NCBI GenBank assembly: GCA_964017185.1
Contig: OZ024876.1
Location: 31,149,778-31,213,777, forward strand
Length of the DNA: 64,000 bases
Reading direction: 5' to 3'
From: Rugalucina vietnamica
Lineage: Eukaryota > Mollusca > Bivalvia > Lucinida > Lucinidae
Position numbers and translations under genes: made by a program. The notes under the pieces were generated by a model. It had not been told where the DNA came from and ran no database searches. It saw nothing but the letters and a program-made list of their open reading frames with translations. Numbering within the stretch: position 1 is the first letter of the stretch; each line of letters opens with the position of its first letter. Below are positions 25,319 through 59,190 of the stretch, piece by piece.

Positions 25319-25394
25319 ATGAAACCCAAAGGATTCTTTCCGTGCTGTTTTATAAAATACAGTTTTGGAGTTCTAGTCATATTGCATTTGAAAG
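25319..25394 (+). CDS. Gene 1 exon 1 (signal-peptide exon)
   Basis: ATG at 25319, 25 codons plus one base, donor AAAG|GTAACC. It encodes a short Lys-containing start and a hydrophobic core FGVLVILHL. The start was chosen because the exon ends phase 1, exactly what exon 2 (beginning TT) needs, and the product then opens like a signal peptide. No TATA box is evident upstream. Confidence 0.75.
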
Positions 25395-25763
25395 GTAACC
25401 GTCTCTAAATGTAAATCACATGTAAACTTATCATTGTCGATTGTCGATTGATTGTCCACATTCGCTAAGAACTTTCGAAAACAATTCCTGTTGGATGTTC
25501 CTTTCTTACCTTCTGGAAAACATGTCCATGAAAAGTATAACCCCTTATACCATAGATTGTGGGTACTCGGCGAGGCGATTCTAACATGTAACCACAGTCA
25601 ATGTTTTAAGCAAACATGTTAAATTTATCAAAATGTTTCCGATGAAATTTTTGATTTTTACAGCTGAAAAAAATCTCTGTATATTGTATGGGCAAGTTTT
25701 CGTAATGCCTCAAATTTTGGTATTCAAAGAAGCACACATGTAGTTTCCACACTCAGGAATAAT

Positions 25764-25830
<67 letters not shown>

Positions 25831-28800
25831 CAATAAAATTCAAGTTTTACAGATGATTTAAAGATGCATTTTTTACCATGGACAGGTAAATACCGGTAAC
25901 ATAAATGTAATCAGTACTGACGCAGTCGAGCACACAAAAACTTTGTAGTGAATACATCGCACTGGTCAGTAAACCCCAAAACGCGGATGCTTTGATTTTA
26001 TTTGTTTACAACCGTTTCCATAGAACTTTTCAAGATCTATACTTTCTATTTCAGTTGATCCCGTGACCTGTGCTCAAGTTTGTGAATTCGCTGGTGGGAA
26101 GACAGAGACCTGTGACTACGGTTGTTGTACCAACGAGTGCTGCCCGTACTCGTAAGTTGTGCATACATACGCAATACGAAAACACGCCCATGCAATATAC
26201 GGAGAGTTTTTCAGCTAAGAAAATATTGAAAATTTAACCAGAAAAAAAAGGTGATATTTTTAATATTTTTTGTTCAAAACATAGGTTTTGGGTACACGTT
26301 AGAACCGCCTCGGCCTCGCCGAGGCGGTTCTAACGAGTACCCACAACCTATGTTTTGGACAGAAAATAAGAAAAATAGGTATACCCCTGCATACCCCAGT
26401 TTTACTATATAAAAGTGGGTTTAAGTGGGTATTCATTGCACGGACATGTTTTCATGATGGTGCATGTAATGTCACTGTAACTATGCGCGGTAGCTCGGAC
26501 GGTAGCATACCCATTGAATGTACAGTTTCTAACTCAGAAGCGTATCGTTGCTTTATCTGTTTATAGCATCGGAAGTACACGGGAAGTCTGCTATGTTGTA
26601 GGCTTTACTTTTACTTTAAAATTGTTGACTGAGACGTTTTAAAAACCATTACTCAGAAGAAATTTATTTTTCTTGTGTTAGGTATTAACAAAAGCCTGTT
26701 CATCTACTTTTGGTATTAATTAAGTGTAGCAGCTCTAGGGATACCCGTTCAAACGAATGATTCCCAACCGGTGTGGTGATAAGATACCACACTGCTGATA
26801 ATCAGTGTCTTTGAATAAGTTTGCCTGACACTGCGAATAATACATGAAGGTCTTTTATTAATAGTAATTCGTATTTTTCAAAACTTCCCACCATGTGTGT
26901 CTAAAGCCGTGTTCATGTGCAGTATTTGCACCCGGGTGTATTTTTGCACCCGGGTGTATTTTTGCCGCTGACTCGGGGTGCAAATTTGCACCTCCATGTG
27001 TAGCGTTCATATGCAGCGAAATCATGTCCATGTTTACCTGGATTTGACATTAAACATTGATTTAAAATGCTCTTAATTAGCAGGGGTCATTTGCTATAGA
27101 TAATTAAAAAAGAATAAATAAAATTATTGAAAATTAAACGAAATAGAAATAAAATTAAAAATAAACTCAGTGCAGTGTAATGTTTATAATAGAAGCACTA
27201 GAATGGTGAAGAAGAGAGTAATTCTTGACACTTGCATCAACATGACGTGGTTAATATAAAAGCGGGGTTAAAATATGGTGTATCGTACAAGTGGTGGAGG
27301 AATATATATATTTCTCGTCTTCACTTCGTTACGAGGAAGCGCCATAAAGACATGATTATAACACTAAATTCATTCACAGTTTTAAATATACTATAAGACT
27401 TAAGTTTAGCAATATTTCTATCCATCATTATTTTTAAAATTAAAAATTTGAAAACTGTCGATACGCTTTTAAAATGTCAAGTGATGGTCAAATTCATGTA
27501 TCGAGACGAGTTTGTGTGTTTCTCTTACGTTCACCAGTTGCTACGTTACGTTTAAAAATTGTGCAAATCACGTGCCCAGCATTCCACATGCATCACATGT
27601 TATCAATTTTTGCCTTGTTTGATTGGTTAAAGTGTCATAAAGAATAGACAAGAATGACATTTGAAAAATTCCGTCAGGGGACGCCGTTATGGCCTGACGT
27701 TAAACCAACGGAACACGCAGATAAATATGCTCGGTGCAGACATGAAGAATAAGAAAGACAATTGAATCCGCTAAGCTTGCGAGAGTAGGATAAATCTTCT
27801 AGAACCCTGTTCCATCAGCTGACAGCATCAAAAAAACCGACATATCATGACTCCAGACAACGTAAGGCTACCATGATATAGGGCAATGGCACTTTGACGT
27901 CATAATGACGTAATCGATTTCTAGGCAACCTACGAATTCCATGCTTGATAATTAATGGCATGGAAAGATGGATTTGTATCGAAACAGCTGACTGGAAACA
28001 ATTCGCGTGGTGTGAACACCGTGAATATCGCCGATAGGTGTCCGTACCTATAAACGTTAAACGTAAACGTGCAAGCCTAAACATGAACACATCAAACCAT
28101 CTAGGCCTACTAAGCGAACGTTTTCTCGTACAAAAAGCGAAGTCGCACGTCATTTCAGCAAATTAACACTTATGGGATCATTTCGGGAGAAAGGCAACGG
28201 AACAATACGACGTCAGTTACGTCATACACCGGGGCCGTTACCTGATTTCAGAATTTAACCAAATCTCTATGATCATGGTACAGTACTCTTTTTGAGCACA
28301 AGAAGGTGTTAAATGAATGTTTTGGGAATAAACCTTTATTTTTTTTCAGATGCCGAGAAACAATGTGAATTTTGAGGTGACACCCTTCTAAACTTTAGCG
28401 CAACGTTATTGCATCAGGAAAAGATGTTTCCGGCTAAAAGTGTTCATTGTTGTTCCTGTAGGTTTAAATATTGATGGGTTAAAGAGTTTCTTTCCGTTCA
28501 TCTTCATATCAATTTACAATTTGAAAATTAATTTAAAATTGCTAAACTTAAGTCTCATAGTATATATATCTGCAACATCCCAACATCGATTTGCTTTGGA
28601 TTGGTTACGGCTTAACATTCCAGTCAACATTTATTCAGGGTGTTAACCAGTACTATAGAGAACTGAATGTGTCTTGCTCAAAGACGTAGGTATCGAACCC
28701 AGGACCAGTCGCTCCGGAGTCCCGTACTCTACCCCTAGTTCACTCGTTCTCTACCCTTAGGTCTCATAACAGTGGCCGGGTGGGAATAGATGGACTGCCT

Positions 28801-29714
28801 AAAGAAATAGGCAGGCTGTTTGTGCCTCTAGGCAAAGCTGTCCATCGATTACTGGTGAACCGCTAAGCTCTGACTAAGCCTGCCCAGGGAAAATGATTCA
28901 AGTCAAAACATCTATACATGACATTAGTCTTATTCGCTTAGTTGGGTGGTTATATTTGAAGCAGTTTCTGGATGTCATGACGTCCTTATTTTGGGTACAA
29001 GTCCCATAAAATGAAGGCAACGTCCCGACATGACCTTAGAAGTTCACGGAAACGCTAAATCACAACTAAACTCAAAAAACTCTTTTAACATTAAAACTAT
29101 AAATTTTAGTAACAATACCTGAAATACCGCGTTTAAAGCCCTCAACTGGCTACAGGGTCATATTGCCTGGTGCTATGCGTAGACAATACTTATCCCAGCC
29201 ATCTGACTGGGAGTAGCCCCTATGTGTATCGGTTGCTCGGTCACTTTAAAACATATTAATTCAGTCAGATTGGGCGTGGTGTAAGGTGGGTGAAAGAAGG
29301 CCGATATGGAATTCAGTTTCATGGATCGTGATTACTATCCTGATATGCACCAGACTTTTAGTATGATCGTTGATTTGTAAGTCTGATTTTATAGATCTTT
29401 ATTAGACATTGCCAGTTATAAAACTTCCATACAAAATGCATATAGCGATAAGCATTTTGCGTTCATATGCACAAAATACAGCCGGGTGCAAAAATACACC
29501 CGGGTGCAAGTTCAATTTGCTCCACCTCGAAAGTAGGGGCAAATTTGCATCCGGGTGTATTTTTGCACCCGGGTGTATTTTCTTAAAACGCCGTTCACAT
29601 GGCATAAAATACACCAGGGGTGCAAATTTGCACCCGGGGTGCAAAAATACACCCGGGTGCAAATGGTGCACATGAACACGGCTTAAGCAGCCAAAGCTCG
29701 GAAACAATTGAAGT

Positions 29715-29746
<32 letters not shown>

Positions 29747-32700
29747 CTTTTTTTTTTTGTTTTTTTTTTTTTTTTGTTTGTTTCATGAGGAAATATTTCC
29801 GTGAAATATAATCCCTTAAACACTACTACTGGGGTGTACAAGGGTATATCTATATTCTTATTTTTATTCCAAAACATAGATTGTTGGTACTAGTTCCGTA
29901 GTCTACCGCTTCCGTGAGGCGGTTCTAACGTGTACCCACAATCAATGTTTTGAGCATAAATAAAAAAAAAAAAAAAAGAAAAAAAAAAAAAATCATTTTT
30001 TTTTTTCAACTGAAAATTTTCTGTTTTTACAGCAAAGGAAAATCTGTATATTACATGATCATGTTTTTGTAATGTCCTCTTTTTCTTGACAGCGTGTCGA
30101 CGAGTGTGCTGATTGTAGCAGGTATAGTCGGAGGGTTGATCGTGGTAGCCCTGGTGGTTGCTATTGTTATATGCCTCGTCAAGACATACAGGGACAAGAG
30201 GGCTGCCCGGGTCCGTCAGCTCAGGCCTGGACATAACCACGTTGAAGGTATTTTACGTATTCATAATAGAAATGTGGTGGAAACTACATCAACCATCGAC
30301 GTTCATCACTGATAATATGTATACAACTTGGTCCAAGTCCTAAGACACTAAGTAACATGAATAACAATAAAATCGAGATCCTTAAGAACAGTGAGCATAT
30401 TAATGAAAAAAAGAGAGATGGACCATACCGCGGACTCGGAGACTTAAGCCTCTCCAGTGACCCTTTAGATTTGGCAAAATGGAGCCAAAGAAATACTGTT
30501 ATTTTGCAACTTTCAAGTGCAATTTTGCAACCCCACCGTGGTTCAGCTGGTGTTTTTCTTTTGCTCCGGGTTTCAGTAAGTTATTCGGCGCCCACGGATC
30601 TCCCTCGTCGGGCAGCTTACTGAATCTGTTGAGTCCTTGTTTTTGATTCATCAAGGTGATTAACATGATTTATTCGTTTGTCCTTGATGATTCATTGTCT
30701 AGTTAGAGATTCACCAAGAGGACCGAACAATTAACTTAATGTTGTGAACCACTGCAGAAGATGAGCATGAGGTCAGGCGCCTGTAAAACCGGTTTAAGCC
30801 CCCCCCCCCCCCCCTGTAATTTTATATTACTGATCGTTCCAAGGCGATACTTCTGTTGTGGTTCTAATTGTTTTGTGTTTTGGAGTCGAGTTTTTGTGCT
30901 GTTTGAGTCTTATGTACGTATTCATAGTTTTAGTTCAGTTCGGGTAACTGAGTGGCCGCCTATTGGAGAATAGCTGCTCACTCGGCTTACGATATGTTTT
31001 CTCGGTATAAGTACCTAAGTGTCATTTTAGTTTTTTCCCAACCCTCGAGCAAAGTTTATGGAGTGGGGAGTTCTTTCTGATTGCGCCATTTCCTGTTCAT
31101 TGCCTACTTGTACCTTTTCCACGGGTGGTAATCAGGGGAACTAGCATCAAAAAGAGTCAACGAGATTTTGTTCCCTCGACACATCCGGGAACGCACGAGC
31201 TAGTCCTCTCGACGGAAAATCAGTAAACAAAGGTATGTCTCGAAGCATTTTATCAATATTTATTTCTTTATAAGCTGTCTGCTGCAAAATCCGGCAATGG
31301 TAGTCTGTGTAGATATGATTTAGCTCCACTCGCTGATACGATTGGTCCTTGGAATATGCACGGTGCGAATATGATTGTAAAAGAGCGTTGAAGACACGAA
31401 ATAAAAATATGTCAACACGAAGATTTGGGACCACTATTTTTTCATTTTTCGTCAAATATATATCCTTCCAATCGCATGAAACATCATCCCTGATAAAACT
31501 AAGCCCCTGAAACCATATAAAAGCAAAATAATCCGGTGGAAACATTGTTTTGGGAGGACATTGACTAAATTACCGTCCGAGCTAGTCCTCTCGACATGGA
31601 GCTAGGTGCCTCGTCAAGGAGATAGCACCCTCGTTGAGGTTTTAATGTTGGAATTAGACGGAATCCTCGCGTCGGTCATCCGTGCGTGGTGCCTCTGTGC
31701 AAATGTTTTTACGAGCCACCGAAGTGTAACGGGGTGCAGCTTAGCCAGCTGATCTCTGTTTGACTCTACTCATTCGATTTCTTTAAATTATGCTCCCCTC
31801 TTCCCGTTGATGCATTTTGTTGACGCCCAAACCGGCGATCGATAGATCAGCTGGCTAACCTGCACTCCACAACACTTCGGTACCTCGTTAACTCATAGAA
31901 AGGAGGTATCACGGAACACCGACCGAACATTTCGTCTAGTATTCCTTGTACACAAACCTTTTATATGAGGGTGTCAATGAGGTACCTCTGAAATCGCTAA
32001 TCAGTAAAATTTTGGCCCAAAAATTGCTAATCAGTAAAAGTTTGGCCCAAAAATCGCTAATCAGTAAAATATGTTGGCCCAAAAATCGCTAATCAGTAAA
32101 TTTTTTGCCAAAAAAATCGCTAATCGGTAAAATAAATGGCCAAAAATCGCTAATCAGTTTTTATCTTTTTTTTACCGCATTTGAAAAACCACATGAAAAT
32201 AGCGAGTTGAATTTTTTTTATTATAAAATACACATAACTCGTCAAAAACAGAAGTGAGTATAGCTTTGGAGACTTCAAATTTCATCCTTAGATATTCTTC
32301 ACAGAAGAATGGTAACAGAGCGCCTTCGATTCAAAATTGACACGGAAACGATAGTGTAGGGTCTTTATTAGCGCCAAAATCGCAAAAGCCGCTATTTTGA
32401 TAAAAACTAGACTTTTATGAAGAATGCGTGGCAAGTTCGATTAATTCCACTATTTCCAATTAAAACAGCACATCGTGCACATTAACTGCAAAAATGGCAA
32501 AGGAAAATCGTAAAACATATAAAATACAGCAATTTTATGAATTGCACCGGTAAACGATATACACCGGTAAACGGGTGAGTCACCATATGAAGCAAAAAAC
32601 AATACGAATTTTCAACTGAAATTTTCATTTAAACTTATGACAAATCGCTGTATTTTGTATAGGTGTGTTTTCTAATGTTGTTTTCTTTCGTATGTTTTTA

Positions 32701-34762
32701 GATAATACAGTAGCATAATGAATTGTGGTCTGTTGTGAGTTATGAAACGGTTAACATCTGTAAAACTGCAGTTAACTATCCCGTTTCTCGTGATATTTAT
32801 ATTGTAAATCATAATGTCCAAGTTACAAAATAGTATACCATCATGGCCCATGCTAATTGTGTATACAATTTATGATCATTTCCTATCTATGGTGCTAAAG
32901 CCAGGAACGACAGCTATCATGAAATGACATTTTTGACTCAGTAAAACCTCAACGAGGGTGCTATCTCCTTGACGAGGCACCTAGCTCCATGTCGAGAGGA
33001 CTAGCTCGGACGATAATTTAGTCAATATCCTCCCAAAACAATGTTTCCACCGGATTATTTTGCTTTTATATGGTTTCAGGTGCTTAGTTCTATCAGGGAT
33101 GATGTTTCGTGCGATTGGAAGGATATATATTTGACGAAAAATGAAAAAATAGTGGTCCCAAATCTTCGTGTTGACATATTTTTATTTCGTGTCTTCAACG
33201 CTCTTTTACAATCATATTCGCACCGTGCATATTCCAAGGACCAATCCTATCAGCGAGTGGAGCTAAATCATATCTACACAGTCTACCATTGCCGGATTTT
33301 GCAGCAGACAGCTTATAAAGAAATAAATATTGATAAAATGTTTCGAGACATACCTTTGTTTACTTTTTTCTGTCGAGAGGACTAGCTCGTGAGTTCCCGG
33401 ATGTGTCGAGGGAACAAAATCTCGTTGACTCTTTATGGAGCTAGTTCCCCTGATTACCACCCGTGTTTTCAACATGATAGTCAATAAAGACTAGTTTTAT
33501 CCAAACAGAGCCAAATATACACGTATAAAGCGATGGTTAGAAAATGAATCTGAACCGATATTCAATTTCTGATTTCTCAGAATACCCTCACTGATCACAA
33601 AGGACCATCTGCACTATGGATGTTACACTTAATTTCGAATTGGCACTCATAGTCTGATATCTGCCTTTGTTGTCCTATATTTTGCTAATGTTCAACATCT
33701 CTAAACATTGGTTTCAGTCGCTATGAGAATTGAAAAAAGAGCCAGGCGTATCAGCTGCCATCTACAGCCAACTTCGTGGGATACAGCTTCAAGTCATGTT
33801 AAATATGTAACTATTTTACAGATAACATTCCGCGGCGCCCAGCGGTGCCGAGAAAGCCCCCTGAGTATACGGAACAACCACCGCCCTACAGTTCGGAAAT
33901 GCCCGAGTCACATTACCGTCCAGTCACTGTTAACGCCAACTACTTCAACTACAACACGCGATACAGGACACCAGCTATGCAAAACTATCCACAAAATCAC
34001 GCTACAAATTCTGGAAATGTGAATGGAAGTCAAGCAAACCAGAATAATGCGGGAACCCGTACTCGGCGAACTGGGGTTTCGGGTTTACCGGGCAGCAATA
34101 ATCAACAATCAGATGCCCAATTGCCTGGGGCACCGATGCCCGAAAGGCCACCCACATACACCGAACAGTCGAACGCGGAACCAGCTGAGGCACAAAGGCG
34201 GAGGAGGTTTATTCAAACGCCACCACGTGGGCCTGTTGTGGTGGGAGGAAGTGATACTGCCCTTAGAACTGTTTCAGAACTCACAAGTTCTGAATCCTCT
34301 GCGATTGACGATGAACAATCAGACACGCGGCAGTCATCATTAACTACACAAACTATGTCACATAACGTATCTGGTGTTGTAATAAGTAGGAGAATGAATA
34401 TTGTGAATCAAAACACAACTAATGGGACGAGTGTGACTAATACGCAAAGTTCAGGGCCCAATGACGCAGTCATAATCGGACAGGAACAATCGCAAAGAGA
34501 CTTAAACGGATTGCAAAACGCACCGGCGCCGCAAACTCAACGAAGCACTGTGATTGGTCAGACGGGGCAGCGCGTGACGAGTAGCTTAGAAACAGCGGTA
34601 TCTCTGGCTAGAAACCGTCAAGCGGTGAGAACAGTAACTCCACACAGTAACCAAGTGACGCCACGCTCTTCGCAGCGCCACCAAGCGGTTTCTGTAAGAC
34701 CTAATTTAAGAACAACTTCTGAGGTTAATACTGCCGATATTGAAGAACTAGCATGTCTTTGA
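25319..34762 (+). CDS. Gene 1: CYYR1/Shisa-like single-pass membrane protein with PPxY tail (4 exons, 422 aa)
   Basis: Coding exons 25319-25394, 26055-26151, 30093-30247 and 33822-34762 join in frame (1269 nt, stop TGA) with GT-AG borders and intron phases 1, 2, 1. The product has a hydrophobic signal-like start (1-25), a short Cys-rich ectodomain (C31, C35, C45, C49, C50, C54, C55), a TM helix at about 63-87, then basic KTYRDKRAARVRQLR. A tail of about 310 residues, rich in N, Q, S, T and R, follows, with PPEY (122-125), PPPY (129-132) and PPTY (219-222). C-x3-CC...CC before one TM and cytosolic PPxY motifs are the hallmark of the STMC6 superfamily (Shisa, CYYR1, WBP1/VOPP1). Those proteins act as membrane adaptors, and PPxY binds WW domains of NEDD4-type ligases. 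By that analogy it would sit in ER, endosome or plasma membrane; this is inference. Seven ectodomain cysteines instead of six is a peculiarity. Gene 2 downstream is its paralogue. Confidence 0.85.
25511..25707 (-). mobile_element. MITE-A copy in gene 1 intron 1
   Basis: GGAAAACATGTCCATG start, ATAGATTGTGGGTACTCGGC, GAGGCGATTCTAAC centre, end GGGCAAGTTTTCGTAATG. It is internally shortened and points toward exon 2. Confidence 0.85.
25762..25830 (+). repeat. (TTTA)n microsatellite
   Basis: About 17 tandem TTTA units in gene 1 intron 1. Confidence 0.98.
26055..26151 (+). CDS. Gene 1 exon 2 (Cys-rich ectodomain)
   Basis: The acceptor CTATTTCAG ends at 26054; the donor GTAAGT begins at 26152. It encodes DPVTCAQVCEF, then TETCDYGCCTNECCPY. 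The CDYGCC and ECC spacing matches the CYYR1-type C-x3-CC...CC motif and aligns residue for residue (C45, C49, C50) with gene 2. Confidence 0.9.
26172..26459 (+). mobile_element. MITE-A copy, full length, 20 nt inside gene 1 intron 2
   Basis: Left terminus ATACGAAAACACGCCCATGC; right terminus, inverted, GGACATGTTTTCATGATG. The centre is a hairpin, GTTAGAACCGCCTCGG / CCGAGGCGGTTCTAAC. It is 288 bp and serves as the type copy for the family. No coding frame. Confidence 0.92.
28640..28775 (-). mobile_element. tRNA-derived SINE, minus strand
   Basis: On the minus strand: A-box-like GGGGTAGAGTACGGGACTCC, then B-box CCTGGGTTCGATACC, then core GAGCAAGACACATTCAG and AGTACTGGTTAACACC. The core corresponds to GGGCAAGACACATTACC and AGCACTGGTTAAACCC in the SINE at 44286, so both belong to one family. 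Confidence 0.85.
28920..29035 (-). repeat. Dispersed repeat C (ATGTCGGGACG family), minus
   Basis: On the minus strand it reads GGTCATGTCGGGACG, CTTCATTTTATGGGAC and GGATGTCATGACG..ATATAACCACCC. This is the order seen at 59300-59470 and 41120-41230. Confidence 0.7.
29717..29775 (+). repeat. Poly-T tract
   Basis: About 59 bases, almost entirely T. It creates spurious Lys- or Phe-rich open frames on both strands. Confidence 0.98.
29783..30074 (-). mobile_element. MITE-A copy, minus, ending 18 nt before gene 1 exon 3
   Basis: In order: GAAATATAATCCCTTAAAC, AAAACATAGATTG, GAGGCGGTTCTAAC, ACCCACAATCAATG, AACTGAAAATTTTC, end CATGTTTTTGTAATG. It is opposite in orientation to the copy at 26172 at the other end of the same intron. 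It includes A- and T-runs (29968-30005). Confidence 0.88.
30093..30247 (+). CDS. Gene 1 exon 3 (transmembrane exon)
   Basis: The acceptor TTTTTCTTGACAG precedes it; the donor is GAAG|GTATTT at 30248. It encodes VSTSVLIVAGIVGGLIVV and ALVVAIVICLV, one helix of about 25 residues with a GxxGG stretch, then the stop-transfer basic run KTYRDKRAARVRQLR. Confidence 0.92.
30345..30508 (+). repeat. Repeat Z, left part (gene 1 intron 3)
   Basis: AATAAAATCGAGATCC, AACAGTGAGCATATTAATGA, GGACCATACCGC, TTAAGCCTCTCCAGTGACCC and TAGATTTGGCAA match the units tandemly triplicated at 47050-47900. The right part continues at 33480 after later insertions. Confidence 0.8.
30509..31119 (+). repeat. Repeat Y copy (plus orientation)
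   Basis: GGGCAGCTTACTGAATCTG, ACCACTGCAGAAGATGAG, AAACCGGTTTAAGCCC followed by a C-run (30800-30814), GTTCCAAGGCGATACTTCTG, GAGTGGCCGCCTATTGG and CTTACGATATGTTTTCT all recur inverted at 52700-55175. Its 3' end is cut at 31119 by the foldback element. Confidence 0.85.
31147..31545 (-). CDS. Unrecognised ORF in left arm of the foldback element
   Basis: A 132-codon frame begins MFPPDYFAFIWFQ and includes IVVPNLRVDIFLFRVFNALL and a Tyr/Arg-rich middle. I do not recognise the family. The last third reads through the conserved arm motif GTCGAGAGGACTAGCTCG. The frame is duplicated in the right arm with few changes but a different, earlier stop. It may be non-coding sequence that happens to be open, or a small element-encoded protein. 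Confidence 0.3.
   Translation of the reverse strand: MFPPDYFAFIWFQGLSFIRDDVSCDWKDIYLTKNEKIVVPNLRVDIFLFRVFNALLQSYSHRAYSKDQSYQRVELNHIYTDYHCRILQQTAYKEINIDKMLRDIPLFTDFPSRGLARAFPDVSREQNLVDSF
33041..33385 (+). CDS. Unrecognised ORF in right arm of the foldback element
   Basis: A 114-codon mirror of the left-arm frame starts with the same MFPPDYFAFIWFQ and is almost identical until residue 108. A small indel (CTTTTTTCTG versus CTGATTTTCCG) changes frame and stops translation. With two nearly identical arms, conservation reflects recent copying rather than proven selection. Confidence 0.3.
   Translation: MFPPDYFAFIWFQVLSSIRDDVSCDWKDIYLTKNEKIVVPNLRVDIFLFRVFNALLQSYSHRAYSKDQSYQRVELNHIYTVYHCRILQQTAYKEINIDKMFRDIPLFTFFCRED
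33480..33640 (+). repeat. Repeat Z, right part (gene 1 intron 3)
   Basis: CGATGGTTAGAAAATGAATC, AACCGATATTCAATTTCTG, CTCAGAATACCCTC and AAAGGACCATCTGCACTATG match the right half of the units at 47050-47780. Confidence 0.8.
33822..34762 (+). CDS. Gene 1 exon 4 (PPxY cytoplasmic tail)
   Basis: The acceptor CTATTTTACAG ends at 33821. The frame is open for 313 codons to TGA at 34760-34762. It opens KPPEYTEQPPPYSSE, with a later ERPPTYTEQ, then a polar, presumably disordered tail. Overlapping frames on both strands are shadows. Confidence 0.93.
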
Positions 34763-34933
34763 AGTATTTGATCATTCACACAATTAAGCGAGGTGTGGGT
34801 GCCAGGGTGTTTACTATTTCCTCAAGTTAGTGAAGCGCTCTTTAATTGTTAATTCATTTAAGTGGCAGGACCACTGAAACTACGCGTATTGTTGTTGTGT
34901 TTAATTTGTTAAATGTAACGTTAATGAATCTAG

Positions 34934-34939
34934 AATAAA
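34934..34939 (+). promoter_or_regulatory. AATAAA polyadenylation signal of gene 1
   Basis: AATAAA lies about 170 nt after the stop codon and is followed by a GT/T-rich stretch (TTTGTTTTGTACATGTATGTG), the expected downstream element. Confidence 0.75.
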
Positions 34940-35107
34940 ATTTGTTTTGTACATGTATGTGTATCACGGTGGTGTGTTGATTTTAGACCCCTGCACTACG
35001 CTTTACCTCATTTGCGAATTTAATTGATCTAGAATTCCACAACCGCTACTTTAAGATTCAAAGATTCGAGGTTTATTTCTAGTGGTATACAAAATTACAT
35101 TTTAGAT

Positions 35108-35262
35108 CTAAAAAACATAGATTGTGGGTACTAGTTAGAACCGCATCGGCGAGGCGGTTTTAACGTGTACCCACAATTAATCGTTTAAGCAAAAATATTA
35201 AAAATATCAAACATTTTCCAATGAAATGTTCAATTTCTACAGCTGAAAAAATCTCAACAAAC
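35108..35262 (-). mobile_element. MITE-A copy, truncated
   Basis: AAACATAGATTGTGGGTACT, GAGGCGGTTTTAAC, ACCCACAATTAAT, CTACAGCTGAAAAAATCTC. Both termini are missing. Confidence 0.8.
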
Positions 35263-35856
35263 AAGTTATGCATATCTGCAGAATAAAGTAGCAATTATCA
35301 TTAACTTTTTTTCTAATGTACACTGTTCATTTCTGGACAAGAACCTGGCACAATTGATTTGCATGTTGTTCACGTGCATCAAGCACGTGTATTGAAATCT
35401 GCACTAACGGATCACCTTTTGCTTATGTGCGAGCGTTAGTATGTGTGGGAAAAAGTAATTATGTGGAAAATAAACATGCGAGTAGTGAGCTTTGGTACAA
35501 CACGTTCAGAGTAGCGTATTGAAATTCACAACGTATATGTGAAAAAAATGCCAGAACTAAAACTGAAGAATCCTGACACTGTCGTTGCACTGTTGTGGCA
35601 AAGTTTGTTTTCCGAAGGTCATTTTTTAAATCTCGTAAATATCCAAACTGCGACCACGTATGTGTAAAAGTCGCTTGAGTGACAACATCGTAAATAACCC
35701 CTGAATAACTATACACTGTCATTATATCTGGAAACGATCTCAAATAGTCTGTTCGAGAATAGTCTATTGATTCCATTAACTGAAGGATACCTGATATTTA
35801 GTGGAGATGTAATGGACCGTGCGGTGCACGCGCCGTATGACATCACACATAATTAA

Positions 35857-37118
35857 CTAGGTCAAACTCACAAACATCTTGGGCTTTTCTTTTCGAAGCG
35901 TTTGGATTGGCAGTCTCATATTGAATACATACAAGAAAAAGCTTGGGCACGCATGAATCTCTTACGAAGTTTAAAATTTACACTCGATAGAAAATCGCTA
36001 CAGCAAATATACTTTACTTTCATTCGACCCGTCCTAGAATACGCAGATGTAGTATGGGACAACTGTACTGAACAACAGAGCGAACTTGAAAAGATCCAAC
36101 GTGAAGCTGGTCGGATTGTCACTGGTACGACCAAGTTTGTCGGAATTGAGGAACTAGATGCAGAGCTAGGAGGCTTAAGCTCTCAGAACGAAGAAACTTA
36201 CATAAGTTATATCAGTTTTTTTTAAAATGGAGAATGGTCTTTCTCCTATGTATCTGACAAATTTAATTCCTCCTCGTGTTGGCGAAAGAACAAATTACCC
36301 ACTTCGTAATTCCGACCACTATGTAACAATGAGAACAAATAGCAGGTCCTACAGTAGCTCATTTCTACCATCAACTATAATTGCATGGAATAACCTCCCT
36401 GTCACGATAAAGTCTGCCACAACATTGCATCATTTAAACATATGCTTGTACAAAATAACACCAGAAATAGAGGATCTTACACGAGTGGTCATTTCATATG
36501 AAATTTATTAAACGAGCCTTCGGCGAGTTTAATAAATTTCATATGAAATGACCACGAGTGTAAGATTCGTTTTATCATATGACTTTTAAAATAGGATTTC
36601 ATCGCCTTCGAAGTGGACATATTTTCAATGAAAATTTACATTGTTGTTACGGACGTCGCCAATGACGTTACGTATTCCCGCAAAAGTGTTACTACACGTG
36701 TGGTCATACGATTTTTATGACATGACGTTATCCATTGGAAAACAGCGACGTCATATGATAATTCCTGATATTACTTTGAAGGTGAAAGAATGTTGCAAAT
36801 TCTTCACACGCGTCTTCGAACTGAATGCAGTTCATTAAATGAACAGTTATTCCGTCGAAACCTAGTACCATCTCCGAATTGTTTATGTGGAGAAATAAAA
36901 GACAATCGCCATTTTTTGTTGATCTGTCCTACATACAATACAGTATATTTCGTCAGGATATGCTTAATTTAATTCAGTCAACAATCCCACAAAATATACC
37001 TATTAACACAACCCTTCTGCTCTTTGGCGATCAGGCAACTCTTTCAATGCAGGAAAACAGTTTTGTTTTCGCTGAAGTTCAAAAACACATCAAACTTACA
37101 AAAAGATTTGCTTCATAA
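35857..37118 (+). pseudogene. Non-LTR retrotransposon reverse transcriptase, C-terminal relic
   Basis: The frame opens THKHLGLFFSKRLDWQSHI and continues to IRPVLEYADVVWDNC, EKIQREAGRIVTG and, after one frameshift near 36225, MENGLSPMYLTNLIPP and FLPSTIIAWNNLP. It then breaks at a palindromic insertion (36474-36780) and resumes LQILHTRLRTECSSLNEQLF, PSPNCLCG, HFLLICPTY, ending near 37118. This is the post-palm thumb and C-terminal part of Jockey/CR1-like LINE reverse transcriptases, which I recognise from motif order. The palm with its catalytic Asp motif is absent (5' truncation), and frameshifts plus an insertion make it dead. Confidence 0.88.
36474..36780. mobile_element. Palindromic MITE inserted in the LINE relic
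   Basis: A very strong hairpin at 36474-36566: arms of about 43 bp (ATCTTACACGAGTGGTCATT; CATATGAAATTTATTAAACG) close on a CCTTCGG loop. It is followed by TTTTATCATATGAC, with GTCATATGATAATTCC near the other end. It interrupts the reading frame of the LINE relic. Confidence 0.8.
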
Positions 37119-37210
37119 TCGTGTATACATGCAAATTTAATTTCACTGTTTCGATTTAGAATCATCTGTGATGTATGTATGACTTGACAATGCAAACTGT
37201 AGCTTGACGT

Positions 37211-37277: not shown

Positions 37278-37278
<1 letters not shown>

Positions 37279-41349: not shown

Positions 41350-41422
41350 ATGGAACCAATGTACCAAAAATTAATTAACTCGGATATTGTTGTTTTAATG
41401 TCTTATTTAATTGTCACATGCT
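41350..41422 (+). CDS. Gene 2 exon 1, candidate signal exon
   Basis: ATG at 41350, 24 codons plus one base, perfect donor T|GTAAGT at 41423. The encoded end SDIVVLMSYLIVTC is hydrophobic and signal-like. It ends phase 1, as needed for exon 2 (CC ACT ATG), and puts the CDxGCC cysteines at the same residue numbers as in gene 1. Upstream in-frame ATGs exist (41257). The 14-kb intron it implies makes it uncertain. Confidence 0.45.
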
Positions 41423-51261: not shown

Positions 51262-51309
<48 letters not shown>

Positions 51310-53852: not shown

Positions 53853-53888
<36 letters not shown>

Positions 53889-56800
53889 AAAGAACATTTC
53901 TCGTACACTCACACATCGGACATTTTGCCTTGTCTTGCTTTCTTTGTTCTCTGATCAGGGTTTAATTTTTATGAACTGATGATTGCGAAATATTACCCAT
54001 ACTACCTCCCTTTGAATGTTTTCACTGCATTCCAAAGGATCTAACATTTATATTTTATTTGCAGTCGTCATTATATACTATTATGATAATGCTTCCTTGG
54101 ATTATTTCCATCACCACGTTTGTCTTCGACATGAGTCTTTGCACGCGTGTAATACTATGATGTGTAACAATGATGAATTGCAAAAAAAATAACTTTTGAT
54201 AAAAGGATAACAAAGCAAAATATGAATTAACGTTCATTGGATTCTAAAATAAGAAAAATAATAAAGAAAGAAAAAAAAAGAAGAAAGAAAAGAAAAAAAA
54301 GAAAGAAAAGAAAAAAAAAAAGAAAGAAAAAAATGCCTTCATTTGGGTATCGAACTCAGAACCAAAGTTTCAAGATGCATGTGGTCAAACGGACGTCTTA
54401 ACCGCTGCACCACAGAGTCTAATACAGGTGAAACGATAAACCAATGCTTATAATTTAAATATTGCAACTATGCATTATGCCGCTTACGCGATATAAAACT
54501 TATTAGTTTTCGTGTTGTTCCGGTAAGGTTTTCGACTGTTTCCGAAGCAGTCCCGTAAGGTTTTACGAAAACTTCACCTTAGTAAAGGTCTGTCATAAAG
54601 TGTATTACAAATGCGCTTTTTAAGGAAAATCCTAGCTAAGGTAAAAACTTAACTTAAACCGCTAAGGAGACCTTAACTTAAGGAATGATTGTAATTCTGG
54701 GCCCAGGCACTTATACCATGAAACATATCGTAAGCCGAATGAGCAGCTATTTTCCCAATAGGTGGCCACTCAGTTACATTAACTTAATTAAAAATATGAA
54801 AACATACATAAGGCGCCAACAGCACAAAAAAAAATAAACACCAAGACATAAAACAAAAAGAACCACCACAGAAGTATCGCCTTGGAACGATCAGTAACAC
54901 AAAGTAACTGGCGGGCTTAAACCGGTTTTACAGGATCCTAACCTCACCCTCAGCTTCTGCAGTGGTTCATAACATTTAGTAAGTTCTTCGGTCCTCGTGG
55001 TGAATCTCTAACTAGTCAATGAATCATCAAGAACAAACAAATAAATCATGATAAACATCCTGATGAATCAAAAACAAGGACTCACAGATTGAGTAAGCTG
55101 CCCGACGATGGAGATCCCTGGGCGCCGAATAACCTACTAACTCCGGAGCAAAAGTTTACTTACTTTGCAAAGGTGGATTTTTTTTTCTAAAATCATTTCA
55201 TATGAAATATACACTTGGAAAAGTTATGGAGCGCCTAAAATTATTAATTGGTATTTATAATTTTTCTATTATTGATAATTATGACCCCCTGTACAACCGT
55301 AATAAGGTCACAAGATACATGGCTACATAATTAAAGCAGCAGAGATACAGTCTGGTTTTTGATACGGTGAGGTTTATTCAGACCAGTAGGCAATGCTAAC
55401 AGGCGACATGGATAATTCCGACCATTATGTGCTCAATTCTACAATTCCTGGTCAGCATTTTTTACTTCAAATTGGTCGATATTTCGCGTGGGCGAAATAA
55501 TATTTCGGCAATAGTCAATTGTTATCACACCGTCACTGATTTCTCTCAGGTGTTAAGTAGTGAGCCACTATGACTAGCTGCTCTGAGTACGACATCAATG
55601 GCAGCCTACGGCGGACCACCAAGTGTGATCACGGATGTTGTGGTACCTCGAGCAATCAGCAGTGTTGTGACTATGCGTAAGTATTTCTATAGCCGAGTAT
55701 CAGCAGTGTTGTGACTTTGCGTAAATACATGTATTTCTATAGCTGAGTATCAGCAGTGTTGTGACTATGCGTAAGTATTTCTATAGCCGAGTATCAGCAG
55801 TGTTGTGACTTTGCGTAAATACATGTATTTCTATAGCTGAGTATCAGCAGTGTTGTGACTATGCGTAAGTATTTCTATAGCCGAGTCAAGACGGAAATTG
55901 CAATCGAGGTTTCCATTTGGTCTGACACAAAACAGGGTGTACAGGTGCTTCACAATCTTTTTAGATAGAGATTTTTCTCATAATTATTTACATATCCTTG
56001 TGATAAACGGGGCAGCCATCCGCTTAATTTCGCAGATATCAAAAGTTTTATTGCAGGGTATGTTTAAACCGTCGATCACTGTGCTTAAAGAGAGGAAAAA
56101 TTCAAATTCAATTGGCCAGTTGCCTCGAACTATTTGATGAACCATGATTAGAATTAGACAATATAATTGTATATAACGCAAGTTCTGATTTCAAAGTCTT
56201 GTCACGAGAATAGGGTTTCCAATATTCCTTATAAAATGCACATGTTCATGTTTTCCGGGGACCCTACTATCGGTTCCATGCAGTATCACCTTTTTCTGGA
56301 ATATCTACTGGGGTTGAACATGAAGGGGGTAGGAATGCAGGTGGCAGAAGATCATTTTTATGTAATCTTAAGTATTAAAATAAATGTGTGAATTAATGAA
56401 ATCAAGTTTTCAAAGCACTGTCAACAGATCATTATTTTAATATGCAATAAATCTTAGCAAAATACCCAGACATATCTTGTGGGGTAAACTTTAAAATACA
56501 GTCAACGCTCCTCAATGAACACTTATCATCTGCGATATTTAAGGTATAATGGTCATTTGGTCAAGATATTCCAGAAACGTAAGGTGTTCCAGATACTGGA
56601 CCTACAGATCTTGGTTTCATGCAGTATCTGGATCACCTAAAGTTTTTGGAATATCTTCTGGGGGCTGAATATGAAAGGGGTAGGAATGCATATGGCAGAA
56701 GATCAATTTTGATGTCATCTTTTAAAAAACTATGTGTGAATCAATAATGAAATCAAGTTTAAATGCACTGTTCATGTTTTTAGAGCAACTACTATTATCA

Positions 56801-59190
56801 TTTGGTGAAATATAAAAACGTCATATAATTTAAGATAGTAATCATCGCTACTTCAGCCAATGCCCAGTGCCCATTATGCCTAAATTATTCCAGATGATAG
56901 TATTCATTGAGGGGCGTTGACTGTAGTTTTAAGTTAACCCCCACATCTGTTCTTAAGATATTTCTGGTTATTTAGCTAAGATCAATCGCATAATATATCA
57001 TGATCTGTTGACAGTGCTTTAAAGACTTGATTCCATTAATTCACACATTTATTCTAATACTTTAGATGGCATAAAAATGATCTTATGCCATCTGCATTCC
57101 TACCTTCTTCATGTTCACCCCCAGGAGATATTCCAAAAACTTAAGATCTTCCAGAAACTGCATTACACCAAGAGTAGGGTCCAAGGAAAACATGAACACG
57201 TGCGTTTTATAAGGAATAATGGACACCCTATCACGTGACTAGACTTTGAATTCAGAACTTGCCGCTTGTTTTATAAATTATATTGTCGAATTTTATCATG
57301 TTTCATAAAATAGTTTGAGGCAACTGGCCTTTGAATTGTTCCTCCGTTTAAGCATGGTGATCGTTGAAACATACCCTGCAATAAAACTTTTGACATCTGC
57401 GAAATTAAGCGGATGGTTGTCCTGTTTATCACCATGGGGTATGTAAATGATTATAAGAAAAATCGCTACCTATAAAAATTTTGTGAAAAACCTGTACTAC
57501 CAGCCATCGGGTTTTAATAGATTATTTTCGAAATGTCGGGTAGAAGTTCCATAAAATAGAGGCAATCACGTGTAAATTTGAAATTTCACAATGAACACGA
57601 CTTTTTCTCAGTCGGTCGCCATCTTGGACTTACAGCAGCAGCGGATGGGACCGTGCCCAGGTCAAAGCAGAGGTCAGAAGTAAAATGATGTTACATTAGC
57701 TGCGGCTTCTGTGGGTCTATTGCTGAAAAAGTTTGAGGCTATAGCCTCAAGTATATTCGGTCAATATTCCTACTAAGCCTTGGAGATAATCATCGCCGCG
57801 GTGCTAATAATGTGGCATTCGTAATAATAGTCGGCGCGGTGAATTGTGTGACTGCTGATTTGATTGTATAAAGCGTTAAGGTGTATGTCTCTGTTTCAGG
57901 AAATCTAACGTCATTATTGTTTTTGGTTGAGGGCTTGAAGTGCTACTGGTGATAATAATTGCCGTGGTGCCGTGTTGCGTACGGTTTCACGGTTTCATAA
58001 GGCAACGCAATTTTTGTGGTTTGCGTGCTTCTGGTCATATTTATAACTGCGGTGTATGTGACTAATGCATACGATTTCTGTTTTAGGTTATCAGACACTG
58101 TTATAATTGTGGTTTGCGTGCTTGGAGCTCTACTGGTCATAATAATTGCAGGAGTGCTTATCATGTGTATCATCAACAGTAAGAAACGAGACAGGGTTGT
58201 GAGAATACGTCACCCAAGACGAGGCCAAGACCATGGTAAGACTGCCAAATGTTTGATCCTACCTACATTTCGGACTCTGTTCACCAGTATGTTATATTAA
58301 AAGGTGTCTAACACTCATTTTTCTAACAATCCAAACGCACACTTTGTGTCTGGCATGCGATTTTGTAATCATATTTTTCTTTAATACATTCATTCTTTCT
58401 TACTTTCTTTTTTCTCACTGTGATGGTGGTGTTGTGTATGTATGGGAAAGGGGTCGTATTTGTATGTAGCTACTTCAAAACTGACATTACATGTCTGTTT
58501 CTAGGCAGACGAAGACAAGAGCCTCCCAAACCACCTCCATATTCAGAGTTGCCACCGGAATATGACTTATATGATGATAATCAAAATGGCCAGTCGTATT
58601 ATCTTCGCCAGTCACGTGCGACGCGCCAGTCACATGACCCTGGACACTCCTACAGTGGCGCTGTTCAATCACATAGTGGTGTTGGCCAATCACATGATAG
58701 CGTTCGTTATAATGCACAAATTCGCCAGTCCCGAAATATTGCGCAGCAACAGATAGCAGAAGAAACAGGACACACGTCAATATATGCCCGCCCACAGCGG
58801 AACAATCTGGGCGCGTACCCTCCACCTCCTACAAGTATATCTAGCTTATCCACTGTAGAGCATAGACCTACACAGAGATTAATACAAAATACTGTGAATG
58901 AAAAGGGAAACCCCTCCGCGAATAAACGGAAAGCCACGCATATCCCGGTGCCCATTAAAACTGAGAGGCGGAATAGAACGCCGTCAACGTCGAGTACAAG
59001 AGCAGCGTCAACGTCTACTGCTGGGAGGTCAGTGTCCACCATAGACTCAGCCCTGCCCGGTATGCTAGTATCAGATCAACAGAATCTCGTGAATAATCGT
59101 GAACAACGGGATACCACGAGATCCGCCATACTACGGAGGCTGCAAGCCAGGAACACGGGACTAGCCGATGTATCTAGTGATTACATTTGA
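41350..59190 (+). CDS. Gene 2: CYYR1/Shisa-like single-pass membrane protein with PPxY tail (4 exons, 339 aa)
   Basis: Exons 41350-41422 (tentative), 55565-55676, 58087-58235 and 58505-59190 join in frame (1020 nt) with intron phases 1, 2, 1, the same as gene 1. Six ectodomain cysteines (C30, C45, C49, C50, C58, C59) give KCDHGCC...QQCCDYA, close to the CYYR1 pattern C-x3-CC-x6/7-CC. A TM helix (about 67-91) is followed by NSKKRDRVVRIRHPRRG. PPPY (121-124) and PPEY (128-131) open a tail with repeated QSH motifs and Ser/Thr/Arg-rich stretches, ending LADVSSDYI. It is the paralogue of gene 1 by architecture, intron phase and cysteine register. The expected role is a membrane adaptor recruiting WW-domain proteins, by family analogy only. 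The weak points are exon 1 and the exon 2 acceptor. If exon 1 is wrong, translation could start at 55570. Confidence 0.75.
42315..42381. repeat. Palindrome of CAGTGCTGTCACG motifs
   Basis: ACTCAGTACTGTCACGGTC, AGTGCTGTCACGGTC, then GTGACAGTACTGATG and TGACAGCACTGAGTT form an inverted pair of tandem motifs. Confidence 0.85.
42981..43924 (+). mobile_element. TTAA-flanked MITE (piggyBac-like), copy 1
   Basis: The ends GGATGTTCGCTGCCAA and, inverted, TTGGCAGCGAACATCC are each flanked by TTAA (42977-42980, 43925-43928). It is 944 bp. The two other copies, at 60810-61754 (inverted) and 61942-62170, allow the boundaries to be read directly. A TTAA site is the signature of piggyBac insertions. Frames shared by the copies contain stops and look non-coding. 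Confidence 0.92.
43950..44065 (+). mobile_element. MITE-A fragment
   Basis: CGTTAGAACCGCCTAGGG, GTATACCCCATTTTACC and TGAAAGTGGTATTTAATGGG match the right half of the family. Confidence 0.6.
44286..44476 (+). mobile_element. tRNA-derived SINE with AATGGCCCTG target duplication
   Basis: Head GGCGTAGTGGTAGAGCGTC (A box) and GGGTTCGATCCC (B box), core TTGGGCAAGACACATTACC, then GGCTCCGTCCCGACATGAC. AATGGCCCTG is repeated at 44276-44285 and 44477-44486, so both ends are defined. It is a pol III-type retroposed element, same family as 28640-28775. Confidence 0.92.
44862..44912 (+). repeat. Tandem CAGTGCTGTCACG motifs
   Basis: Three copies of ATCAGTGCTGTCACG in 50 bp, right-hand partner of the cluster at 42315. 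Confidence 0.9.
45560..46995 (+). repeat. Repeat X, plus copy, interrupted
   Basis: GGTTGAAACGCACTGGTGCA, ACTGGAGTAAGATTAGAATG, a (CT)n run (45687-45725), GTTATTTGTCATGTCACCTG, GCAGAGAAGGGCGGAAGCG, TCATGGGTTAGAAGCC, then after an insertion GGTATCGAAGCAAACGTTTT and ACAACGCACTGATGG. The same sequence, inverted, lies at 50580-50940 and 52500-52680. Confidence 0.88.
45871..46762. mobile_element. Element inserted in repeat X (ATGCCCCCAAC ends)
   Basis: By comparison with the uninterrupted copy at 50816, the insertion lies between CATGTGTTT and TTTCATG. It starts ATGCCCCCAACTTTG, and GTTGGGGGCAT recurs, inverted, at 46721-46731. It contains (GTCT)n at 45915-45971 and a direct duplication of about 300 bp (45978-46270 and 46285-46570, both with GTTGACC, CATGTCC, TTATGTCCCTTTGAAA and TGTGCAAGATATCTCAAAAA). 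Confidence 0.75.
47050..47900 (+). repeat. Repeat Z, tandem triplicate, about 365-bp unit
   Basis: Units start near 47055, 47406 and 47773 (AAATAAAAATAAAACTG), each with GAACATATTAATGAGAAAG, CTCTTCAGTGACC, TAGATTTGGCAA, CGTTGGTTAGAAAAT, TCTGATTTCTCAGAATACCC and CTATGGATGATGTACGG. The third is cut at about 47897. Single-copy halves occur in gene 1 intron 3 (30345-30508, 33480-33640). Confidence 0.9.
47901..48258. other. Short intergenic or intronic stretch
   Basis: It contains CACGATT/AATCGTGG motifs repeated in both orientations (47945-48110). No gene is recognised. Confidence 0.4.
48259..48496 (+). mobile_element. MITE-A copy, full length
   Basis: CATTACGAAAACTTGCCCATGC start; GGCGAGGCGGTTCTAACG centre; ATACCCCAGTTTTGC; end GGACATGTTTTCCTGATG. 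Confidence 0.9.
48825..49030 (-). mobile_element. MITE-B copy
   Basis: GCGAAAACAAAGATGCAGACG, GCTTCGAAGTAACTGCGAAGC, GATCAGCGCC, CGCTGCACGGATAGTACAAT, TATGTCGGACCACATTG and TTGGTTTTCAGCAT follow family order. A degraded partial copy may follow at 49045-49180 (CTTCTGACCAGATCCGATAA). Confidence 0.85.
49495..49710 (+). mobile_element. MITE-B copy, left palindrome arm shortened
   Basis: GAGCCGCGTCATGAAAAGAC start, GCGAAGCTGATCAGCGC, ACTACCCGGATAGTACAT, TCGGACCTGGTCGGAAC, end CGCGTTGCGGCTC. Confidence 0.85.
49845..50020 (-). mobile_element. MITE-A copy, degenerate
   Basis: GTACCCGTTAAATCCCACT, CAAAACATACCCACAACC, GAGCAAAATTTTTGAAAATA, end GGGCAAGATATCGTGATG. The GGCGGTTCTAAC centre is deleted. 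Confidence 0.75.
50290..50480 (-). mobile_element. MITE-A copy, degenerate
   Basis: TTCCTATTTTTGCTCGACAC, ATAGGATGTGTGTACTC, GAATCGCCTCTAACATG, CATTTTTACAGCCTTGTAAG. Confidence 0.65.
50580..52680 (-). repeat. Repeat X, minus copy, carrying a TIR transposon
   Basis: The left part (50580-50942) and right part (52498-52680) are the inverse of 45560-46995 without its insertion. The junction is the TIR element at 50943-52497. CAGTGCGTTGTACC and CAGTGCGTTGCAACC mark the two outer parts. Confidence 0.88.
50943..52497. mobile_element. GGCCCAGAATTAC TIR transposon, copy 1 (1555 bp, CAG target duplication)
   Basis: Ends GGCCCAGAATTACAATGCTT and, inverted, ATTGTAATTCTGGGCC. CAG occurs at 50940-50942 and 52498-52500. 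The uninterrupted target is visible at 45745-45760 (inverse of GCCAGGTGACATG), confirming the borders. Subterminal AGGTAGACCTTAACTT and GACCTTAACTTAAG motifs repeat. It contains a T-run (51267-51306), a C-run (51641-51654) and a minus-strand tRNA-like segment (52145-52210). No transposase: non-autonomous. Confidence 0.92.
52806..54703. mobile_element. GGCCCAGAATTAC TIR transposon, copy 2 (1898 bp, CAG target duplication)
   Basis: Same ends as copy 1, flanked by CAG at 52803-52805 and 54704-54706, inserted in repeat Y. It shares internal blocks with copy 1 (GAGTGGGAGACTTTTTCA, GATGTCATGACAGGCGAG, AGATGTGCTTT, GCATTATGCCGCTTACGCG). It has a (GAAA)n tract (53853-53889) and an A/G-rich stretch at 54250-54330. 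The 80-103 codon frames at 53588-53916 cover these simple repeats and are not genes. Confidence 0.92.
54345..54425 (-). other. tRNA-like segment inside TIR transposon copy 2
   Basis: On the minus strand: CTGTGGTGCAGCGGTTAAGA (A-box-like) and TGAGTTCGATACCC (B-box-like), about 45 bases apart. A diverged counterpart sits at the same relative place in copy 1 (52145-52210). Acceptor-stem pairing is not evident, so I do not call a tRNA gene. Confidence 0.55.
55176..55564. other. Sequence upstream of gene 2 exon 2
   Basis: A+T-rich, no repeat recognised. A strong pyrimidine-CAG (GATTTCTCTCAG, ending 55549) precedes exon 2. Every reading frame from it to the exon's cysteines meets a stop (TAA, TAG or TGA at 55554-55563), so the usable coding acceptor must be a later AG. 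Confidence 0.5.
55565..55676 (+). CDS. Gene 2 exon 2 (Cys-rich ectodomain)
   Basis: It encodes TMTSCSEYDINGSLRR, then TKCDHGCCGTSSNQQCCDY, and splices at GC|GTAAGT (55677). The acceptor chosen is GTGAG|CC, the only upstream AG giving phase 1 without a stop. ATG at 55570 is an alternative start. Confidence 0.8.
55648..55886 (+). repeat. Tandem repeat made from the end and donor site of gene 2 exon 2
   Basis: Five copies of ATCAGCAGTGTTGTGACT, then ATGCGTAAGT or TTGCGTAAAT, then ATTTCTATAGC(C/T)GAGT. They alternate 44-bp and 50-bp forms (94-bp dimer). The first is the coding one. Three copies keep the GTAAGT donor, two have GTAAAT. Confidence 0.95.
55920..57520. repeat. Long imperfect inverted repeat in gene 2 intron 2
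   Basis: The left arm, about 55920-56510, and the right arm, about 56925-57520, are reverse complements (GCGGATGG(C/T)TG..CC, GCAGGGTATGTTT, CATGTTCATGTTTTCC, AGTCAACGCTCCTCAATGAA). A direct third partial copy lies between them (56600-56780, GGGGTAGGAATGCA, GGCAGAAGATCA). This is probably a transposon pair or foldback. The frames in it are shadows. Confidence 0.85.
57778..57850 (+). pseudogene. Decayed copy of gene 2 TM exon (copy P1)
   Basis: CTTGGAGATAATCATCGCCG and CGGTGCTAATAATGTGG align with the TM exon (CTTGGAG..ATAATAATTGCAGGAGTGCTTATCATGTG). GTAATAATAGTCGGCGCGG may be a further partial repeat. No intact splice sites. Confidence 0.55.
57900..57976 (+). pseudogene. Decayed copy of gene 2 TM exon (copy P2)
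   Basis: It is preceded by a good acceptor (CTCTGTTTCAG). TCTAACGTCATTATTGTTTT and GTGCTACTGGTGATAATAAT align with the real exon. In the gene's frame a TGA appears after ten codons and there is no matching donor. Confidence 0.7.
58009..58060 (+). pseudogene. Decayed copy of gene 2 TM exon (copy P3)
   Basis: TTGTGGTTTGCGTGCT, then CTGGTCATATTTATAAC and GCGGTGTATGTG, align with the real exon with a gap of about 10 bases. It lies immediately upstream of the functional acceptor. Confidence 0.65.
58087..58235 (+). CDS. Gene 2 exon 3 (transmembrane exon)
   Basis: Acceptor TTTCTGTTTTAG, donor CATG|GTAAG. It encodes LSDTVIIVVCVLGALLVIII, AGVLIMCII, then NSKKRDRVVRIRHPRRGQDH. Hydrophobic helix plus basic stop-transfer, same design and phases as gene 1 exon 3. 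Confidence 0.92.
58505..59190 (+). CDS. Gene 2 exon 4 (PPxY cytoplasmic tail)
   Basis: Acceptor CATGTCTGTTTCTAG. The frame is open for 227 codons to TGA at 59188. It starts RRRQEPPKPPPYSELPPEYD, then several QSH repeats (58660-58700), then a Ser/Thr/Arg-rich end. Frames in other phases over 58487-59042 are shadows. Confidence 0.93.

Follow-up and report, generated by a model that had tools for sequence, protein, structure and literature searches.

Two sets of exons lie on the same strand in this part of the Rugalucina vietnamica genome, and the question that they raise is whether they are a pair of related Shisa- or CYYR1-like membrane protein genes, as the initial annotation had proposed, and whether the second of them is still a working gene. 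The window, which here means the whole stretch of 64,000 nucleotides that was analysed, is part of contig C8, in a genome of 1.09 Gb assembled into 47 contigs. The upstream gene is called A, and the downstream gene is called B.

The presence of two genes on one strand was borne out by a search for the codon pattern CDxGCC, which matched the window twice (at 26111 and 55624), both times on the + strand. This pattern was expected 0.01 times on average, and none of 100 shuffled sequences contained two matches. Moreover, the longest stop-free runs in the window are the tails of A (319 codons) and B (273 codons); the third longest has 140 codons, and the largest run seen in 40 simulated windows was of 197 codons. 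The search for further copies next to the pair, which had been recommended, returned none within 10 kb on each side, using both the codon pattern and tblastn (E≤1).

Gene A can be read as four GT-AG exons between 25319 and 34762, with intron phases 1, 2 and 1 and a predicted product of 422 amino acids. Its parts, with exon and intron separated by a slash in the donor sequence, are:

25319..25394, + strand: exon 1 (predicted), with a start codon, a signal-peptide-like stretch and the phase-1 donor AAAG/GTAACC
26055..26151, + strand: exon 2, the cysteine exon, with C31, C35, C45, C49, C50, C54 and C55; phase 1 in, phase 2 out
30093..30247, + strand: exon 3, with the transmembrane (TM) helix and a basic juxtamembrane stretch; phase 2 in, phase 1 out
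33822..34762, + strand: exon 4, a polar tail of 313 residues with PPEY-TEQ-PPPY and, later, PPTY
34934..34939, + strand: AATAAA of gene A, 172 nt past the stop

The PPxY motifs of the A protein start at residues 122, 129 and 219, and a hydropathy scan of exon 3 gave a mean of 3.21 over 21 residues. The cysteine exon is devoid of methionine, and A needs an exon 1. The exon given here is a prediction, plausible rather than proven, since it fails the rule that was applied to B (a hydrophobic stretch, a GTR-G donor and phase 1), with a hydropathy of 2.27 against the required 2.4 and with GTAACC as its donor. Note that this rule is strict, since it rejects A's own exon 1 and gave no candidate in the 20.8 kb upstream of A. 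Intron 3 of A also contains a fold-back element (31120-33465), made of inverted repeats whose arms measure 431 nt (97%) and 100 nt (95%). Nearly the same open frame is present in each arm (140 and 122 aa), and neither frame had a Pfam match at E≤0.01.

For gene B, three coding exons can be supported between 55570 and 59190, with intron phases 2 and 1; they would encode 313 amino acids from the ATG at 55570:

55550..55569, + strand: stretch from the homologous CAG acceptor to the ATG, containing TAG TGA in frame as well as a weaker GAG acceptor, from which the exon would start at 55565
55570..55676, + strand: exon 2, the first coding exon found, with the ATG and six cysteines; phase 2 out
58087..58235, + strand: exon 3, with the TM helix and a basic juxtamembrane stretch; phase 2 in, phase 1 out
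58505..59190, + strand: exon 4, a polar tail of 228 residues with PPPY-SEL-PPEY
59673..59678, + strand: first AATAAA past the stop of gene B

Counted from this ATG, the B protein has exactly six cysteines (C4, C19, C23-24 and C32-33) and PPxY motifs at residues 95 and 102, and the hydropathy of its exon 3 has a mean of 3.46 over 21 residues in the same type of scan. Both genes had been assigned the same number of exons, intron phases 1, 2 and 1, and CDxGCC cysteines at residues 45, 49 and 50. All of this holds for the gene model of A, which includes the predicted exon 1. For B, the phases are 2 and 1 over exons 2 to 4, while its exon 1 was not confirmed, and the proposed cysteine register would require it.

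Is this divergence between the two gene models accompanied by a common origin? The claimed paralogy was confirmed by BLASTP, in which A and B are identical at 34 of 96 positions (E=1e-20). When the comparison was made exon by exon, no shuffle out of 1000 scored as high as the cysteine exon, the TM exon or the first 30 residues of the tail; for the basic juxtamembrane stretch alone the result was weaker, with 4 of 1000 shuffles reaching its score. The remaining part of the tail shows no homology, its score being reached by 316 of 1000 shuffles, in agreement with the earlier statement that the tails share only their PPxY opening. This opening consists, in both proteins, of two PPxY motifs placed three residues apart. 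In addition, the phases agree at the exon junctions that the two genes have in common, and the tails of A and B look alike, by eye, in their position-specific base use. The identity of 35% over the aligned core, together with tails that cannot be aligned, suggests an old split between the two genes and gives no support to the lineage-specific duplication proposed in the initial annotation. The parts kept in both copies (the cysteine exon, the helix and the PPxY pair with its three-residue linker) mark what matters in these proteins, and the rest of the tail has drifted beyond recognition.

To which family do these proteins belong? The initial annotation had placed them in the STMC6 superfamily, as Shisa/CYYR1-like proteins, and had recommended profile searches with the joined sequences. 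Their general character was upheld by these searches, in which CYYR1 (PF10873) was the best Pfam model for both A (24.4 bits, or 28.6 on the trimmed core) and B (21.6 bits, or 23.6 on the trimmed core), but membership in a named family was not, since the cut-off of this model is 31 and no other family cut-off was passed. Shisa_N (PF13908) came second for B, with 17.7 bits (19.6 trimmed; cut-off 22), and WBP1/VOPP1 (PF11669) gave 9.9 bits with trimmed B against a cut-off of 28.1; for A, neither model was reported. The CCSYYAY box is absent, its place being taken by CCPYS in A and CCDYA in B. The WY/WF/IW motif beside the membrane is described as a feature of STMC6 proteins (PMC6125347), and there is no tryptophan beside the helix in joined A or B. 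Since no Pfam cut-off was passed, and both the CCSYYAY box and the aromatic motif are missing, neither protein can be named as CYYR1 or Shisa, and the pair is, by its sequence, Shisa/CYYR1-like.

The cysteines lead to a similar description. The majority of Shisa-like proteins have six cysteines in the order C-C-CC-CC, according to a legend in PMC5578492. Before the helix, only B has exactly this set; A has seven outer cysteines, in which the same order is contained with one extra. Both proteins have a single TM helix followed by a putative inner tail with PPxY motifs, as judged by the hydropathy scan and the motifs. The profile scores were also compared with those of six frames taken from the genome, none of which was over the Shisa, CYYR1 or WBP-1 cut-off. 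With the CYYR1 model, three of these frames (one of them Shisa-like, the other two TM-plus-proline frames that look unrelated) scored just 14.7-16.1 bits, and thus A and B stand above this background. Shisa_N gave 14.5 and 15.8 bits for two of the four Shisa-like comparison frames and was not reported for the other two.

Searches of the whole genome, performed exon by exon, a procedure that weakens short exons, gave two weak matches with the CYYR1 profile, both outside A and B, and 35 matches with Shisa_N, 7 of them over the cut-off and none in the window. In protein searches of the genome at E≤10, B had 10 matches and A had 11. These were the three exons of B or the four exons of A, a weak match to the TM exon of the other gene (E 0.67 for B and 0.48 for A), and six additional places for each protein, some of which are Shisa-like frames while others look unrelated. 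The genome holds four other cysteine-plus-TM frames with the C-x3-CC...CC spacing (C7:48861928, C7:48868671, C7:42273380 and C1:88339336). Among the sequences of solved structures, 30 matched at E≤1 (best 0.0032) and none of them is Shisa-like by name. They include sodium-channel beta subunits, APP and receptor helices, nearly all of them matching in the helix region, as well as one Fab light chain and some longer stretches. Two further observations concern the frames found elsewhere. L005 and L008, at C7:48.86 Mb, are Shisa-like frames of opposite orientation, separated by about 6.7 kb, and in both of them the helix is followed by runs of threonine. L028, L031, L032 and L033 (match 1501-1611) are near-alike CCG...CC frames, spread over several chromosomes, with weak Shisa_N scores, L028 being just over the cut-off; they are probably a dispersed repeat and not Shisa genes.

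Another possibility could be that A and B lie outside STMC6, as cysteine-rich single-pass proteins of unrelated origin, with PPxY tails gained by convergence. That every profile score is below its cut-off, and that weak matches are obtained with many types of TM helix, would fit such an origin. We consider it very improbable, however, because the CYYR1 matches of both proteins span the cysteine region, the helix and the start of the PPxY tail together, because the cysteine order and the C-x3-CC..CC spacing agree with those of the other Shisa-like frames in the genome, and because the predicted gene layout agrees with that of CYYR1.

This last agreement can be followed in some detail. The CYYR1 gene, located on human chromosome 21, encodes a cysteine region, a single TM helix and a PPxY tail, all of them common to A and B. 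It has four exons, with the first PPPY placed shortly after the exon 3/4 junction, and the insertion of a CAG at this junction yields alanine, as reported in PMC1863428; since the inserted CAG gives alanine, we infer that the junction is in phase 1, as in A and B. The gene model of A fits this layout, with its exon 1 predicted, and B fits it over exons 2 to 4. The proteins differ in length and in the arrangement of their motifs: CYYR1 is described as a protein of 154 residues as a whole (PMC1863428), whereas the tails alone have 228 residues in B and 313 in A, and its PPxY motifs are given at 113-116, 129-132 and 145-148 (PMC11399591), unlike the pair with a three-residue gap seen here. With Shisa and Shisa-like proteins, B shares the order of the six cysteines, the single TM helix and the proline-rich start of the tail, but it is below the Shisa_N cut-off. 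Moreover, in the four Shisa-like frames of this genome the cysteines and the TM helix are in one open frame, whereas in A and B they are split by a phase-2 intron. One neighbour gene was compared: GABPA, a human neighbour of CYYR1, is on C12, not on C8, so that no shared CYYR1 neighbourhood was seen with this gene. As part of our best overall explanation, and with the same better than even confidence that we give to the whole, A and B would be nearest to CYYR1 in sequence and gene layout, within the Shisa-like/STMC6 kind.

We then come to the second part of the question, since gene B seems to have lost its normal start. Its homologous acceptor reads CAG/GT GTT AAG TAG TGA (intron/exon), and the frame read from this acceptor, starting at 55550, is closed after two full codons: it translates as VK, two stops (55558-55563) and ATMTSC. 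In four Shisa-like frames elsewhere (L005, L006, L008 and L016), a CAG that could be a phase-1 acceptor is placed directly before the cysteine region, reading CAG/GC GTG in L008 and CAG/GT GTG in L005. Of the AGs between the in-frame stop of B and its ATG, only a GAG, 15 nt past the CAG acceptor, keeps phase 1. Since the homologous frame is closed and only this GAG keeps the phase, B either starts at ATG 55570, which has an A at position -3, or uses the weak acceptor 15 nt further on, or is decaying.

A separate exon 1 for B was looked for in the interval between the two genes, among ATG frames that have a phase-1 GT donor at their end. The exon-1 rule gave three signal-like candidates on the + strand and two on the - strand; since this is chance level, none was accepted. 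Note that the register 45/49/50 would fit B if a candidate exon of 24 residues (41350-41422) were joined to the acceptor at 55565, and our guess is that this candidate was the one used for the register in the initial annotation.

Pieces of the exons of B recur as copies in its intron 2:

55655..55886, + strand: tandem array containing the last 22 nt of B exon 2 and its donor, five times
57781..57814, + strand: TM-exon relic 1; weak (nhmmer E 1.4)
57890..57970, + strand: TM-exon relic 2, 72% identical, with an acceptor and an in-frame TGA (blastn E=1e-9)
57984..58030, + strand: TM-exon relic 3, 74% identical over 47 columns (E=0.01)

The array has a 94-bp unit (44+50); the 94-bp repeats are identical, and exon-end copies 2 and 4 are slightly changed. 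The array probably expanded recently and would present donors that compete with each other. The downstream donors were rejected as alternative ends of exon 2, because reading past the first donor leads to GCG TAA at once, and the copies were rejected as micro-exons (28 nt, from TATAG to the next donor), because this length is not a multiple of three. The scores of the three relics (16, 35 and 19) were each reached by 0 of 500 shuffles, and twelve control stretches of 111 nt from the rest of the intron scored 8-11. Relic 2 was discarded as an alternative exon on account of its TGA. The same intron also has long imperfect inverted repeats (56000-57432), whose largest arms measure 143, 78 and 70 nt and are 85-93% complementary; these are probably another fold-back element.

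The relics also serve as a clock. If relic 2 drifted freely, the exons of B look as if they were kept by selection after the copies arose, since 313 codons stayed open while the relic fell to 72% identity and gained a stop. When random drift of the B coding sequence was simulated, 152 of 1000 runs were free of stops at 5% drift, 9 of 1000 at 14% and 0 of 1000 at 28%. The value at 5% means that the simulation does not speak against a very recent loss of function of B.

How, then, is B to be read? Tentatively, and with a confidence clearly short of even, we see it as the gene of a working Shisa-like protein, in which the signal peptide was dropped after the frame break and translation starts at the internal ATG, or in which the signal exon of A is borrowed across about 30 kb. 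A recent pseudogene, with the signal-peptide exon and the 5' frame lost and the open tail left over, would account for the in-frame TAG TGA right after an acceptor homologous to the predicted acceptors of its relatives, for the lack of an exon 1 above chance, and for a locus disturbed by a repeated exon end and three TM-exon relics. It is rather unlikely, however, given that the six cysteines, the TM helix, the splice signals of two introns, the PPxY pair and the 313 codons are all intact, that the base use of the tail still resembles that of A, by eye, and that the neighbouring relic decayed while the TM exon of B did not. We also regard as unlikely that B is spliced via the GAG acceptor at 55565, either to a signal exon of its own or to exon 1 of A, the two genes then providing alternative downstream halves. 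This acceptor does keep phase 1 and lies past both stops, exon 1 of A ends in the phase that would fit, and the junction phases of A and B match; but GAG is a weak splice acceptor, a CAG is available 15 nt upstream, and A has an AATAAA of its own shortly after its stop. Should B, in line with our tentative reading, have dropped its signal peptide or borrow one, this would be a change of topology inside STMC6, made visible by the stops after the ancestral acceptor. Since its ancestral start is closed and pieces of its exons are copied, B offers a testable case of how a signal peptide could be lost while the membrane domain is kept.

What could the function of these proteins be? Our best explanation, which we hold with somewhat better than even confidence, is that A and B are old tandem paralogues encoding small single-pass membrane proteins of the STMC6 kind, which would act as PPxY adaptors for WW-domain ligases. 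In both, a short outer domain rich in cysteines would be followed by one TM helix, a basic flank on the inner side and a long polar tail that is probably disordered. The helix and the outer domain would place them on the Golgi/endosome/plasma-membrane route and choose partners or cargo, and the PPxY pair would bind the WW domains of NEDD4/WWP/ITCH-type ligases (or of YAP-like proteins). The ligases brought to the membrane in this way would cause ubiquitination and sorting. Protein A would enter the membrane by its signal peptide. Protein B would most likely start at ATG 55570, with the TM helix serving as its signal anchor; the basic inner flank favours an orientation in which the N terminus is outside.

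Several known proteins provide a precedent. Human CYYR1 is reported to bind WWP1, WWP2 and ITCH via its PPxY motifs, to be present on late endosomes, and to drive the lysosomal degradation of WWP1 (PMC11399591). WBP1, WBP1L and VOPP1 are likewise described as single-pass PPxY adaptors for WW proteins (PMC6125347, PMC11399591), and 64 matches to HECT-domain exon pieces were found in the genome at E≤0.001. The cargo would not be common to all such proteins, since mouse CYYR1 and frog Shisa4 are reported to be without effect in a fly axon-guidance assay (PMC5578492). As in the double-PY ligands LATS1, PTPN14 and dendrin, A and B have two PY motifs a few residues apart, with a linker of three residues as in LATS1. 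The very tight mode of KIBRA/MAGI binding, however, is described as requiring exactly two linker residues (PMC6744271), and we do not claim it for A and B, whose linker has three; for this reason, WW binding by the pair is expected to be of modest affinity.

The proposal that these genes may be undescribed in molluscs was wrong for the general kind of protein, since transcripts of the mussel gill are reported to be enriched in a Shisa Pfam annotation (PMC5549309), although shisa was not found by one study in Lottia gigantea, also a mollusc (PMC7653359). Thus, going by the mussel annotation, proteins of this general kind are already known from molluscs too, and A and B are additional members. 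A description of such a gene pair was not found in a thin search of the open-access literature. A and B add long-tailed, double-PPxY members to the family, the invertebrate branch of which seems little studied.

Finally, the window contains other elements. Between the two genes, at 35857-36511, there are open frames that resemble a reverse-transcriptase fragment by eye, with no Pfam match at E≤0.01. Upstream of gene A, about 41 copies of a 187-bp unit occupy positions 72-7701, and further arrays with units of 187-188 bp are present at 13445-14161 and 15337-16378.
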